Source of the DNA: Cadophora sp. MPI-SDFR-AT-0126
Lineage: Eukaryota > Ascomycota > Leotiomycetes > Helotiales > Ploettnerulaceae
Assembly: GCA_020747065.1 (NCBI GenBank)
Contig: JAGMVK010000016.1
Location: 682,001 to 746,000, forward strand
Length of the DNA stretch: 64,000 bases
Direction: 5' to 3'
Made by a program: the position numbers and the translations under genes. The notes beneath the pieces were generated by a model that did not search any database, had not been told where the DNA came from, and saw nothing but the letters and a program-made list of their open reading frames with translations. Below are positions 7,312-43,807 of the stretch, in pieces; positions within the stretch are counted from its first letter, which is position 1, and each line of letters starts with the position of its first letter.

Positions 7312-7819
7312 AGGCATGTGCAAACGCACAACAGAAATAAGTTACCTAATGTTAAAATTGAACAAATAATGACATCTCGGAGACCTTGAAGTACGTTTGA
7401 ATGGCTCTGGGAGAGCTCGCACACCGGATATACCGCAAAGGACAAAGTTCACCCAACATTCCAAGTCCTTATATATTTCTCAAGCAAAAAACGACTATCA
7501 AGGAGCAACTTATTGCACAAGAGAAAAATCGGGTTTCCCCGCGATGGCGACGAGGCGTCTCTCGCACCCATTCTCAGAGTAATCCCTGGGTCCAAAATGT
7601 TTCGTCTGTCAACATTGGAGTCTGGGCAATATCAGCTCAGGTGCACATAGCCGAGATGACGTAATGCTCCTTGGCGAGAAACCAGACGGACAAAGCTCGG
7701 CAAATATCGTAGCTAATAAGTAGTCAAATAAGAAAATTTGCAGCATCTCGGTTAACCAACGGTCTTGTAAGCTTGCCCAATACACTGTCACGCCGCTCTC
7801 CACCTTCTTCTAACACATT
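7312..7819. other. Intergenic, no supported gene
   Basis: Region between the esterase gene and the first tRNA-Pro locus. Small frames only. Confidence 0.5.
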
Positions 7820-7957
7820 GCCTAGATGGTCTAGTGGTATGATTCTCGCTTAGGGATTACTCTGAGTATGATTGCGAGAGGCCCCGCGTTCGAATCGTAT
7901 GTGTATCTTAAAACCTTCCCAATTCGCATCAACTAACAACGACCAGGCGGTAAGACC
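7820..7957 (+). pseudogene. tRNA-Pro(AGG) copy, probably a pseudogene, with a GT-AG intron in the T arm
   Basis: A tRNA with anticodon AGG at 7852-7854. The 5' acceptor strand is 7820-7826, the anticodon stem CTCGC (7845-7849) pairs with GCGAG (7874-7878), and the usual intron after position 37 is 7856-7872. The T stem starts as CCGCG (7884-7888), loop TTCGAAT, then C61 at 7896. The sequence then switches to a GTATGT...ACTAAC...CAG segment (7897-7946) before GCGG resumes at 7947. Removing that segment restores a perfect five-pair T stem. The 3' acceptor strand (7951-7957) is degenerate compared with the second copy (one base missing, one G to A), so most pairs fail. Hence pseudogene or recently dead. 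The B-box core GTTCGAATC is left intact. Confidence 0.75.
7897..7946 (+). other. Spliceosomal-type intron (50 nt) inside a tRNA T stem
   Basis: Begins GTATGT, has ACTAAC 12 nt before the end and ends CAG, matching the protein-gene introns in this window. It lies between tRNA positions 61 and 62 and its excision rebuilds the T stem exactly. It has no run of four T on the sense strand that would stop Pol III. Confidence 0.7.
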
Positions 7958-9656
7958 CAAGTTATAATTTTTATTTTTTCAATATAAACTTGTCTCGCAG
8001 AACTAAGGAAATAGACTATTAAGAATCTTTTCTTTTAAAAGTCATTTTTAAAGTCTTAACAATACTTTAAAGTCTAATAAAGTATTTAAATTTTGGTTCT
8101 TAATTCTTTAGTACTAGTCAAAGAAATTCCACCCTTGATTAAAGCCCGCTTTTAAGGATTCGTATCTGCGACGCATATTACACGAGCTAGTAGGCTCTGT
8201 ATAATTTTGAGAAATAGCAGAAGTAGCCTCAGATTTGGAAGCAGACCTGGCAGTTATCTGAGAGCTTAATTAGATTTTTGATCTTAAGAATCATATACTA
8301 ACAAGTACTCGGGATCGTCTTGTGCTATTATAGAAGCTTGGGTATTACTTTCAAAGCAAGTGGTATTATGTCCAAGCCGCTCGCTTCCCCACCGAAGAAC
8401 CTTGAGGTGTAGAGTCGGGCTCCGGCAGGCATGCGAAATGACCCCGCCAATCACAAAGTCAGAACCTTGGCATTTACCCTCACTCAAATCATTCATCACA
8501 ACGGAAAGCATTAACCCACTAGTCCAGGGAGGCCCTGAAACTATTAAGATCTTACTTCGTTTAGCGAAGCCTCTCTTAAGTAGGAACCAGGAGGATGCGC
8601 CTTATTTGTGAAGGGAGATGTTTCGCGAAAATCACTACTTACGGCAAGGACTTCGAAAAAAGCAGTGTTGTTCTCACTCTCTCCTACTCGACCTTTTTAA
8701 GTACATATACCTATTTGTACACAGACGACAGAGAAATTTCTCAGTGTAAGGTAAATGGTTCGTTGCTCTCGATAGCAGCTCGGCTCACTAGTAAGGAGAG
8801 TTTTCTAATCAGTTAGGCGTGGTAAAGATCTCTTAACAATGTCGCCTTATTTCAAGCTGCTTGGTATCGGATCCTGAAAATGGCACACTTAGAACATCAC
8901 TCTCAGACTTTTTCCACCTGTGGTCTCTTTGTGATCCCCATAAATTTGACTTAAGGTGGCTCGATTAGCTATTCAAATTGCCTACCTCAGTGGACAGTTT
9001 TATTCCTTAGAGAAGATATTCGTTCTTTCTTTCTCGTCCGACAAACGAAGTCTGCTTCAGAGAGTAGTATAATAGAGCATCCCTTCTCTATTTAGTACTA
9101 CCATACTCGTAGTTAACTAGATTGTACATAGGTCACACTACTTTGGTCAAATTGCTCCCTCCAGAAATAGTTGGCAGCCATTTGTGATCCCGACGAGAGC
9201 CGTCCCAACACTCGACCACCTTTCCCGAAACTGATTTGTAGTCCAGACCCAGGGTAACGGCTCAAACGATGATTACAATTCAAGTTGGAATCATTTGAAA
9301 CATATCACAATTACTTCCTCAAAGTTTTCTAATTACTTGTAAGCATGTTGAGAAATACTATTGCGCAATCACTTCCACGATGTGGAGCGACAGCACGAGA
9401 AAATGAAAATTCGGGATTTTGATGCCTTAATCACTCTTTCGATTGCTACCTTTCTGATTCTTCTATTCTCTATCAATATTGCCTTTCAGCGTAGTATTCT
9501 GGATCAGAGTGCCCGAACTATAAATCTGTAAAGGAAGGAAGAACAAGCCCCATTCTCGGCTCGCTTAACCCCTGGCACTTTCCCACAAACATTCACATTC
9601 TGCTGTCTTCAACATATAACCAGATAAGCACTCCTCTTACATCAGCCAATCAAATA
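7958..9656. other. AT-rich intergenic stretch between the tRNA loci
   Basis: 7958-8300 is AT-rich, with T runs that could end Pol III transcription (from about 7968) and many TA steps, suggesting an old mutated repeat. 8300-9656 contains only short frames without recognisable domains. Confidence 0.5.
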
Positions 9657-9811
9657 GCCTTGATGGTCTAGCGGTATGATTCGTAAGTTTCTCCCATCAC
9701 TCAACACGAGTATATCTTCAAATCAAGATTCTAACATCCATCACAGTCGCTTAGGGATTTACTCTGAGTACAATTTGCGAGAGGTCCCCGGTTCAATCCC
9801 GGGTCAAGGCC
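9657..9811 (+). tRNA. tRNA-Pro(AGG) with a canonical intron and a second, spliceosomal-type intron
   Basis: The acceptor strands GCCTTGA (9657-9663) and TCAAGGC (9804-9810) pair perfectly. The D arm is 9666-9680, the anticodon AGG is 9753-9755, and the T stem CCCGG/CCGGG is intact with loop TTCAATC. The usual tRNA intron after position 37 is 9757-9775. The anticodon stem is interrupted: position 27 (C, 9682) is followed by GTAAGT...CTAAC...CAG (9683-9746), and positions 28-31 (TCGC) resume at 9747. With both introns removed all five stem pairs with GCGAG (9777-9781) form. A box and B box lie outside both introns. A T5 terminator follows at 9817. By structure the gene looks functional if the extra segment is removed. 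Confidence 0.85.
9683..9746 (+). other. Spliceosomal-type intron (64 nt) inside a tRNA anticodon stem
   Basis: GTAAGT donor, TTCTAACA branch-like site 15 nt from the end, and TCACAG acceptor: a textbook fungal mRNA intron, located between tRNA positions 27 and 28. It lacks TTTT on the sense strand, so Pol III could read through it. Position and sequence differ from the insertion in the other copy. Confidence 0.8.
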
Positions 9812-9816
9812 CTACC

Positions 9817-9821
9817 TTTTT
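9817..9821 (+). terminator. Pol III T5 terminator of the tRNA-Pro gene
   Basis: Run of five T, six bases after the last acceptor-stem base; standard class III termination signal. Confidence 0.75.
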
Positions 9822-41770: not shown

Positions 41771-43807
41771 ATGTCAGAATCAAAACCATCATGGAAACCG
41801 GAAGAGGAGGAAGACGAGGAAGATTACGATGAGACTGTAAGCTCGCACCTCCTTCTCAATCCCATGCTAACAAGTTTAGAACTACGTCTCTCAAAAAGAC
41901 GCCGTGCTCTTCGCGATCGATGTTAGCTCTTCGATGCTCGCACCACCTCCTCCATCCGACGACAAGAAGGCCGGGACGGACAGTCCAACAATCGCAGCCA
42001 TCAAATGCGCCTATGAGATCATGACACAACGTATTATTTCGAGTCCAAAAGACATGATGGGAGTCCTACTGTTTGGAACGGAGAAGTCTAAGTTCCAGGA
42101 TGAGGATACAAGCAGTCGTGGATCGATCGCATATCCTCACTGCTACTTGCTGTGTGATCTGGGTGTTCCATCTGCTAAAGACGTGAAAGAACTGAAGAAT
42201 ATTGGAGAAGATTCGGCGGAAGCAGAGGAATTACTCGTGCCCTCTGAAGAGCCAGCTTCGATGTCCAATATGCTGTTCTGCGCAAATCAGATCTTCACGA
42301 CTAGAGCACCAAACTTTGGATCGCGACGTCTTTTCATCATCACTGACAGAGACGACCCACATTCCACGGACAAGGCTGCAAGATCACAGGCTACAGTCAG
42401 AGCGAAGGATTTGTACGATTTAGGTGTTATCATTGACCTGTTCCCCATTTCACATCCTGATCATGATTTCGATCGGTCCAAATTCTACGATGTAAGTAAT
42501 TGAAGCATAGTTGCCCCATCCCGCTGACTTGGCAGGATATCATCTATCGAGACCCAGCCGAGGGAGAAGATCTTGCTGTGGTGTCGTCGAACTTAAAATC
42601 ATCTGGAGAGGGCATATCTCTGCTTCACAGCCTAATATCAGACATTAACTCGAAACAAGTTGCAAAGAGAACGTTGTTCTCTAACTTGCCATTCGAGCTT
42701 AGTCCCAACCTTACCATCTCAGTAAAAGGCTACAATCTTCTTCAAAAGCAGGAGCCGGCTAGATCCTGCTTCATCTACGAAGGTGGCGAAGAGCTTCAGA
42801 TCGCCGAGGGTCGAACTGCCAAGTTCTCGGCCGAGACTGCAGATGAGGTGCAAAAGACGGAGATTAAAAAGGCGTACAAATTTGGAGGTAGCCAGGTTGT
42901 GTTCACAGTCGAGCAGCAGAAAAAGCTGAAACAATGGGAATCACCAGTGCTCAGAATCATCGGATTCAAGCCCCAGTCCATGCTTCCCACATGGGCGTCG
43001 GTGAAGAAAGCAACTTTCATCTACCCAAGCGAGGACGGCTACATTGGATCGACCCGAACGTTTGCGGCTTTATGGCAGAAGCTTCTGAAAGATAAACTCA
43101 TGGGTGTAGCATGGTTCATTGCTCGAGCCAACGCATCCCCTCTCATTGTTGCCATCCTACCTTCTGCAGAACGATTCGATGATGTTACGGGGGCACAGGT
43201 CATTCCTCCGGGACTGTGGTTGTATCCAATTCCTTTCGCCGACGATGTTCGCGAGGCTCCCCCGGTGCCAAAGCCACTTGTTGCTGGTGAAGAGTTGATC
43301 GATCTCATGCGAATGATCGTTCGACAACTACAACTTCCCAAAGCTATCTACGACCCGATGAAGTACCCAAATCCTGCTCTTCAATGGCACTACAAAGTCC
43401 TGCAGGCCATGGCACTTGAAGAGGAGCTACCAGAACAAAGTGAAGACAAGACGGTTCCTAAGTTCCGCCAGATCAACAAGCGAGCTGGCGAATACATCAA
43501 GAGCTGGGGAGCAGTTCTAGAAGAACAATCCCGCGCATACACAAGAGTTCATTATGGTGGTAACGACAATGCAAAGCTAAAGCGCGGCAGCGATGGGGAA
43601 GAAGGCCCCCATAAACGTATCAAGACGGAAAAGAAGGGGTTGGAGAGCATGAGTCATGGTGATCTGAAGAAATTTGTGGTTGCTGGTAATCTATCAAAGT
43701 ATACTGTGCCCGAACTGAAGGATTGGTTGACGTCGAAAGGATTGACTGCAACGGGCAAGAAGGGAGACCTGGTTGAGAGGATTGAGCAATGGGTTGAGGA
43801 GAATTGA
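41771..43807 (+). CDS. ku70: Ku70, DNA end-binding subunit for non-homologous end joining
   Basis: Exons 41771-41836, 41880-42491 and 42536-43807 encode 649 aa, the usual length for fungal Ku70. An acidic N-terminus (residues 1-22) precedes a von Willebrand A-like domain starting [13 protein letters not shown]. The central beta-barrel and ring region follows ([14 protein letters not shown] onward), including [20 protein letters not shown]. The C-terminal arm leads to a SAP DNA-binding domain in the last 50 residues ([23 protein letters not shown]). With Ku80 it forms the ring that binds double-strand ends in the nucleus; it also acts at telomeres. Known as mus-51 in Neurospora and nkuA in Aspergillus. 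Confidence 0.95.

Follow-up and report, generated by a model that had tools for sequence, protein, structure and literature searches.

Introduction

A tRNA-Pro(AGG) gene in the window (the whole 64,000-nt stretch of DNA that was analysed) has its anticodon stem split by a segment resembling an mRNA-type intron, and raises the question of what such a segment is doing in a tRNA gene and how a tRNA could be made from it. We consider it very probable from the sequence that the insert is a U2-type spliceosomal intron in a tRNA gene transcribed by Pol III, and that this genome has many more like it. The argument draws on the architecture of the intron, its borders, the stems restored by its excision, the recurrence of such introns across the genome, the contrast between exons and introns, and the upstream and terminator signals that the interrupted genes share with intact ones.

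Two interrupted tRNA-Pro genes

The features of the first gene (gene a, window positions 9657-9811) are as follows.

9617..9630, + strand: upstream Pol III promoter-like element TAACCAGATAAGCA, starting 40 nt 5' of the gene a tRNA
9657..9682, + strand: exon 1, tRNA positions 1-27 (direct reading, ARAGORN)
9683..9746, + strand: mRNA-type GT-AG intron, 64 nt, at tRNA 27/28 (restored stem and ARAGORN tRNA-Pro call)
9747..9811, + strand: exon 2, including the canonical intron; its last base is the discriminator C
9757..9775, + strand: canonical 37/38 intron, 19 nt (ARAGORN i(37,19))
9817..9821, + strand: T5 run, Pol III terminator-like

The first-pass annotation had described a 64-nt segment with GTAAGT, CTAAC and CAG between tRNA positions 27 and 28, and direct reading bears this out: the insert follows C27, inside the anticodon stem, begins with GTAAGT, carries CTAAC, whose branch A lies 12 nt before the 3' terminus, and finishes with CAG. 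A single placement of the 64-nt excision preserves the joined sequence. With the insert removed, the anticodon stem regains the five pairs that had been predicted (CTCGC/GCGAG, the junction falling after the first C), and the acceptor stem (GCCTTGA/TCAAGGC) and T stem (CCCGG/CCGGG) pair, in agreement with the earlier description of the other stems as intact. ARAGORN calls the sequence without the insert tRNA-Pro(agg), with a 19-nt intron at 37/38 that confirms the ordinary intron also proposed there. Given the unspliced gene, ARAGORN makes a wrong call, tRNA-Val, and in the raw window neither bacterial-mode ARAGORN nor an Rfam search at gathering level reports a tRNA. As a chance estimate, a loose GT..G / YTRAY / AG segment begins at 0.15% of window positions. 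Searching sets of viral contigs and genome contigs for an exact copy of the exon-intron junction gave no match.

The first-pass annotation was right about gene a and overlooked a second interrupted tRNA-Pro(AGG) gene (gene b, 7761-7958), 1.7 kb upstream, which we located via a D-arm pattern search of the genome (match near 7828).

7721..7734, + strand: upstream element TAGTCAAATAAGAA, starting 40 nt before gene b exon 1
7761..7766, + strand: exon 1, GGTCTT, acceptor positions 1-6
7767..7825, + strand: acceptor-stem GT-AG intron, 59 nt, GTAAGC...CTAAC...TAG
7826..7896, + strand: exon 2, including the canonical intron
7856..7872, + strand: canonical 37/38 intron, 17 nt (ARAGORN i(37,17))
7897..7946, + strand: GT-AG intron, 50 nt, at the 3' end of the T loop, GTATGT...CTAAC...CAG
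7947..7958, + strand: exon 3, GCGG followed by TAAGACC and the discriminator C

As it stands in the DNA, gene b is pseudogene-like, with D and anticodon arms intact and acceptor and T arms that appear broken. After the two excisions, the T stem (CCGCG/CGCGG) and the acceptor stem (GGTCTTA/TAAGACC) are both perfect, and the discriminator is C. A completion script was free to make, in each flank, a single GT-AG excision 40-75 nt long; it returned this arrangement as the sole solution, and it completed 1 of 20,000 random flank pairs from the window. On this figure, and on the many separate cases described below, a chance origin was rejected. The upstream element stands at the same distance, 40 nt, from genes a and b. 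Minimum-energy folds of both mature tRNA-Pro sequences gave no clean cloverleaf and were left unused.

Interrupted genes across the genome

How common such genes are, a question raised by the first-pass annotation, was addressed in the window's own genome (53,960,497 bases in 38 contigs, ~54 Mb). Loci were gathered with queries free of splice signals: the Rfam tRNA model, D-arm and anticodon patterns, the Rfam U6 model, and a pattern for the upstream promoter. GT-AG introns were read in 19 tRNA genes (25 introns) and in 2 U6 genes (one each), giving 27 introns in 21 genes; the earlier reading of the gene a insert as an mRNA-type intron is thus strengthened by the 24 others that tRNA genes of this genome contain. 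The Rfam tRNA model (RF00005) returned 51 matches from the 62 of 1,988 candidates that were scored, a list biased against interrupted genes, and the survey is incomplete; because so few candidates were scored and intact Glu genes were missed, the count of 51 is itself no evidence of interruption.

The interrupted tRNA genes are Pro(AGG) (two), Pro(CGG) (two), Ile(AAT) (three), Arg(TCT), Arg(TCG) (two), Thr(AGT), Met, Ala(AGC), Glu(TTC), Val(AAC) (two), Gly(GCC) (two), and His(GTG). Introns lie in the acceptor, D, anticodon, variable, and T regions, with up to three per gene: one Pro(CGG) gene has three and the other two, and the intron at 27/28 in tRNA-Pro(CGG) L004 occupies the same place as that of gene a. 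Another 58 tRNA genes are intact or have an anticodon-loop intron only, each with one ARAGORN call over it (the anticodon being wrong for some), and three tRNA-like loci (L071, L143, and L159) were placed in neither class. Among the promoter-pattern matches listed and read, 11 tRNA loci are interrupted, 12 are intact, and 2 fall in neither class; of the listed matches, 40 were retrieved for reading and 13 had been known beforehand.

At up to two mismatches (copies with more are missed), the D-arm pattern has five matches in the genome, one a non-tRNA and four tRNA-Pro(AGG/CGG). All four of these are interrupted, which gives no support to the alternative, entertained in the first-pass annotation, that an intact tRNA-Pro(AGG) gene supplies the cell. 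Within this incomplete survey, every copy found is interrupted for Pro(AGG) (2/2), Pro(CGG) (2/2), Val(AAC) (2/2), and His(GTG) (1/1); intact copies exist for Pro(TGG) (L030), Val(TAC), and Val(CAC). The notion that all isotypes missing from the first list are interrupted was rejected, as intact genes were read for Phe (3/3), Glu (6/7), Tyr (1/1), Cys (2/2), and Asp (1/1). Pattern searches of the genome did not find tRNA-Asn. The SRP RNA gene (one match over the cut-off) is intact, so interruption spares some Pol III genes.

When spliced, 17 of the 19 interrupted tRNA genes yield the expected tRNA in ARAGORN, and two (Met L044 and Val L127) are given a wrong identity; some intact genes, L020 among them, are also misidentified at the same settings. 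When unspliced, 13 receive no call, two a wrong call (Pro L003 and Glu L106), and four their expected identity (Ile L042, Ile L051, Arg L049, and Met L044), by way of a stretched loop or intron bases. Our reading of these genes, if true, would show that ordinary tRNA searches miss interrupted genes of this kind.

The two interrupted U6 genes, both Rfam U6 matches, are located as follows.

G000:C38:2221085-2221190: U6 gene L059, GT-AG intron between GGTCAAT and TTGAAACG
G000:C11:486589-486742: U6 gene L062, GT-AG intron between ATGGC and CCCTGCAC

They make the U6 precedent that had been cited for gene a a fitting one. By eye, there are four U6-like loci (L059-L062): L059 and L062, with introns excised, match what we take to be the usual U6 core, while L060 is intronless with a divergent core and L061 looks decayed. 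The L062 intron adjoins the U6 catalytic core, as in fission yeast.

Intron structure and borders

All 27 introns are short (47-64 nt), and their ends follow the U2-type pattern: each begins GTNNG, with G at +5 throughout (GTAAGT in 13, GTATGT in 4, GTAAGC in 3, GTAAGA in 2, and five single variants), and each ends in AG (CAG in 17, TAG in 6, AAG in 4). YTRAY branch sites occur in 26, the branch A lying 6-17 nt before the 3' terminus, and 18 of these sites are CTAAC; the lone intron without YTRAY, the second of L154, has CCTAAAC instead (by eye). The borders of these introns were drawn by eye on the expectation of GT-AG, so their splice-site conformity is partly by construction; the genes themselves were found without it, and paralogues and pairing provide an independent check. 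Excision has a unique placement, which is GT-AG, in 16 of 27, and two to four equivalent placements in the other 11. None of the 25 tRNA introns is at the canonical 37/38 position, where genes a and b each have a separate intron.

Comparing intact with interrupted paralogues fixes several borders. Met L044 is the tRNA of L020 plus 53 nt between AAAGG and TCGAG; likewise, Ile L011 lacks the intron that L042 and L051 have between GATCGC and TTAGC. Among Gly(GCC) genes, L031, L037, and L038 have no intron, and L145 and L152 have one between CCCCGGG and TTCGA; L152 has a second between GCGTTTGT and GG. The intact and interrupted members of Arg(TCG) (L010 and L055) and Thr(AGT) (L009 and L056) also agree on borders.

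For comparison with mRNA introns, the window contains a Ku70 gene fragment, whose best named protein matches are from Cadophora sp. DSE1049 (93% identity), Leptodophora, Oculimacula, and Rhynchosporium, which marks the fungus as a Cadophora-like helotialean. Its two introns, at 41837-41879 (43 nt, GTAAGC...CTAAC...TAG) and 42492-42535 (44 nt, GTAAGT...CTGAC...CAG), with ends read by eye from protein-guided exons, have the same build as the tRNA and U6 introns. No run of five or more T occurs in the 1,443 nt of intron sequence; as just ~1.3-1.6 would be expected, this is no evidence of selection.

Exon conservation and intron divergence

The exons of Ile L042 and L051 are identical (74/74), and their introns, 60 and 51 nt long, resemble each other no more than shuffled sequences do (alignment score 44; shuffle mean 32.8, maximum 50). 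The three other paralogue intron pairs have some residual similarity, which counts against our reading: the Gly pair scores 52, above all 200 shuffles (maximum 46), so that some common ancestry is likely, and the Val and Pro AGG/CGG pairs score 33 (shuffle maximum 35) and 31 (maximum 42), respectively. First exons of only 5-8 nt and their 3' partners keep pairing while the introns diverge. Between L048 and L011 the acceptor stem has changed on both sides, from GATCGCT/AGTGATC in L011 to GGTCGCT/AGTGACC in L048, a compensated difference. Compared all-against-all, the 27 introns share no stretch longer than 13 nt, and the common stretches are mostly branch sites or 5' ends; with no near-identical copies among them, an introner-like element family was rejected for these introns.

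These data bear on the strongest rival account, in which the interrupted copies are dead, being pseudogenes with inserts of introner-like or other mobile DNA, and intact tRNAs do the work. Passages of a review mostly take eukaryotic D- or T-arm insertions to be pseudogenes, a presumption made for lone insertions (PMC4090602), and several isoacceptors here do have intact copies as well. Yet dead copies would sit poorly with exons and pairing partners preserved beside diverged introns, with the compensated acceptor change, with inserts sharing so little sequence, with an upstream element and T run that are kept, and with the lack of any intact Pro(AGG), Pro(CGG), Val(AAC), or His(GTG) gene among the loci read in the incomplete survey. 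We regard this account as improbable.

A less likely account still, and one we hold to be very doubtful, is that these are non-canonical tRNA introns cut by the tRNA splicing endonuclease, of the BHB type of archaea, Cyanidioschyzon and nucleomorphs, with an accidental GT-AG appearance. Those lineages do have introns at many tRNA positions, several per gene, according to passages of the same review (PMC4090602). However, in a single-register test for the full BHB form, as distinct from the relaxed HBh' forms, the four-pair central helix is present in 0 of 27 introns and three pairs in 7 of 27, near the 15% random expectation; since chance alone would give just 0.6 full helices, the introns lack the required structure rather than avoid it. 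Moreover, GT-AG ends are found in all 27 and a branch site at mRNA-like spacing in 26, the U6 genes have the same introns, and the yeast endonuclease, as described in part of one paper, cuts at 37/38 only (PMC4033280).

Transcription signals

A conserved element (consensus TAAYCARATAAGCA) lies upstream of tRNA genes of both kinds. Its score is at least 11 of 14 in 41 of the 65 tabulated tRNA genes and in 11 of 13 interrupted ones, as compared to 1.75% of random 110-nt stretches, and at least 10 in 58 of 65 and 12 of 13, as compared to 10% at random; in 52 of 65 a score of at least 10 is reached 30-70 nt upstream of where the RNA begins. The element is at -40 to -42 in 7 of the 13 interrupted ones, including L002 and L004, whose first exons are predicted solely through splicing. 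No clear element precedes L055. The SRP RNA gene (L125) is preceded by a similar element (by eye). Downstream, a run of at least four T lies within 38 nt of 20 of the 21 interrupted genes, and at +70 in the remaining one, His L166.

That the upstream element and T-run terminators are common to intact tRNA and SRP RNA genes suggests transcription by Pol III, and the genes combine introns of mRNA type with signals that look Pol III-like. By eye, introns split the B box in Arg L055 and Pro L005, so internal Pol III promoters should be weakened there; transcription of these two may depend on the upstream element instead, of which L055 lacks a clear example. An alternative places the tRNA exons within Pol II transcripts, from which ordinary mRNA introns would be spliced first and the tRNA excised afterwards. 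It draws on the build of the introns, in which they cannot be told from the two mRNA introns of Ku70, but it is most unlikely given an upstream element that intact tRNA genes have at comparable spacing (as does, by eye, the SRP RNA gene) and the T runs that closely follow nearly all the interrupted genes.

The upstream pattern could find Pol III genes with no knowledge of the RNA: it has 147 matches, as compared to 74 for the reversed pattern. Behind the promoter element we also see a multi-copy RNA-like family (L128, L136, L138, L148, and L151) that ends in T runs and has shared stretches near GAACACCAA and CCTCACACGCATCCGA (by eye); Rfam at gathering level gave no match for L128, L136, or L138. 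Other loci have the promoter element and a T run and no recognised RNA (e.g. L131, L133, L134, L137, L146, L147, L155, and L156), and no Rfam match at gathering level was found for L131, L133, L134, L137, and L146. The motif AAGCGAG lies ~300-350 nt after the promoter element at L128, L129, and L133-L136; counted on both strands, it occurs 9 times in 26 Pol III-like loci and 0 times in 14 others. Trailers are conserved as well: all five tRNA-Lys(CTT) genes L022, L024, L025, L026, and L027 have the 3' trailer CAATTCCCGAGGTT, and the tRNA-Phe genes L067-L069 have conserved 3' trailers (by eye). A hairpin then follows, whose stem sequence varies between copies with pairing seemingly kept; it is perhaps a functional trailer or a linked small RNA.

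Proposed maturation pathway

From these features we infer Pol III transcription, removal of the introns by the spliceosome, and an order of steps. Pol III would transcribe the gene from the upstream TATA-like element, with the internal boxes where these are intact, to the T run. The major spliceosome would then recognise GTAAGT, CTAAC, and CAG in the primary transcript and join the exons, and only after this joining could the anticodon stem form. The tRNA splicing endonuclease and ligase would next excise the 37/38 intron, and RNase P and tRNase Z would trim the ends. In gene a the endonuclease should act second because, by what is established of tRNA splicing, it would need an anticodon stem that cannot form before the 64 nt are removed; trimming by RNase P and tRNase Z should be delayed in the same way where introns interrupt the acceptor stem.

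The spliceosome thus probably has a role in making this fungus's tRNAs, a job not known for it. As many isoacceptors also have intact copies, some interrupted copies could be dispensable. Evenly balanced, in our judgement, is a bolder proposal, that the spliceosome is obligatory for tRNA maturation in this lineage. Entire isoacceptor families, those of Pro(AGG), Pro(CGG), and Val(AAC) and perhaps that of His(GTG), would exist in interrupted form only, as would the U6 genes that are best conserved, so that translation would need splicing and the spliceosome would splice its own U6; the introns would have entered abundant Pol III RNAs repeatedly, perhaps by reverse splicing, leaving a record of gain free of reading-frame constraint. 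Since some tRNA families have members with and without introns and the borders are exactly known, this genome offers a clean system for testing spliceosomal intron gain.

Comparison with known systems

The closest parallel is the U6 intron of Schizosaccharomyces pombe, which is, like those described here, a short intron of spliceosomal type in a Pol III-type RNA gene, and the present genome has two such U6 genes. Unlike in S. pombe, such introns occur here in numerous genes, chiefly those of tRNAs, with as many as three per gene in addition to an endonuclease-type intron. Some basidiomycetous yeasts also have an mRNA-type U6 intron. Published passages on this subject deal with the U6 intron only (PMC10484740).

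Canonical eukaryotic 37/38 introns coexist with the GT-AG introns in genes a and b (9757-9775 and 7856-7872), and the latter differ from them in position, length, and borders and, by inference, in machinery. Archaea, Cyanidioschyzon merolae, and nucleomorphs likewise have more than one intron in a gene, in the D, T, anticodon, and acceptor regions; the review cited above describes non-canonical introns of nucleomorphs and of C. merolae, for which it holds BHB motifs to be critical in C. merolae (PMC4090602). The archaeal and C. merolae introns need a BHB-like structure and the splicing endonuclease, whereas none of the 27 introns here has the full central helix.

In lichen fungi, spliceosomal introns occur in rRNA genes. 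The SSU rDNA of Phialophora has introns of 63-75 nt, described in part of one paper as minimal group I introns (PMC3160393). Lichen and Phialophora rDNA introns are likewise short and in structural RNA genes of Pezizomycotina, but their hosts are Pol I rRNA genes. Portions of genome accounts (PMC8248866, PMC7864672) put the counts at 107 RNAs and 124 tRNAs in two Cadophora strains and at 136 tRNAs in Marssonina coronaria, and in those portions GT-AG tRNA introns are not mentioned.

An mRNA-type intron in a Pol III RNA gene is thus a known arrangement, and for tRNA genes as the host class we found no precedent, that is, no report of spliceosomal introns in tRNA genes among the open-access PMC papers listed. 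If our reading is true, the spliceosome can act on Pol III tRNA precursors, a single transcript would need the spliceosome and then the tRNA splicing endonuclease, and mRNA-type introns can invade tRNA genes at many sites.
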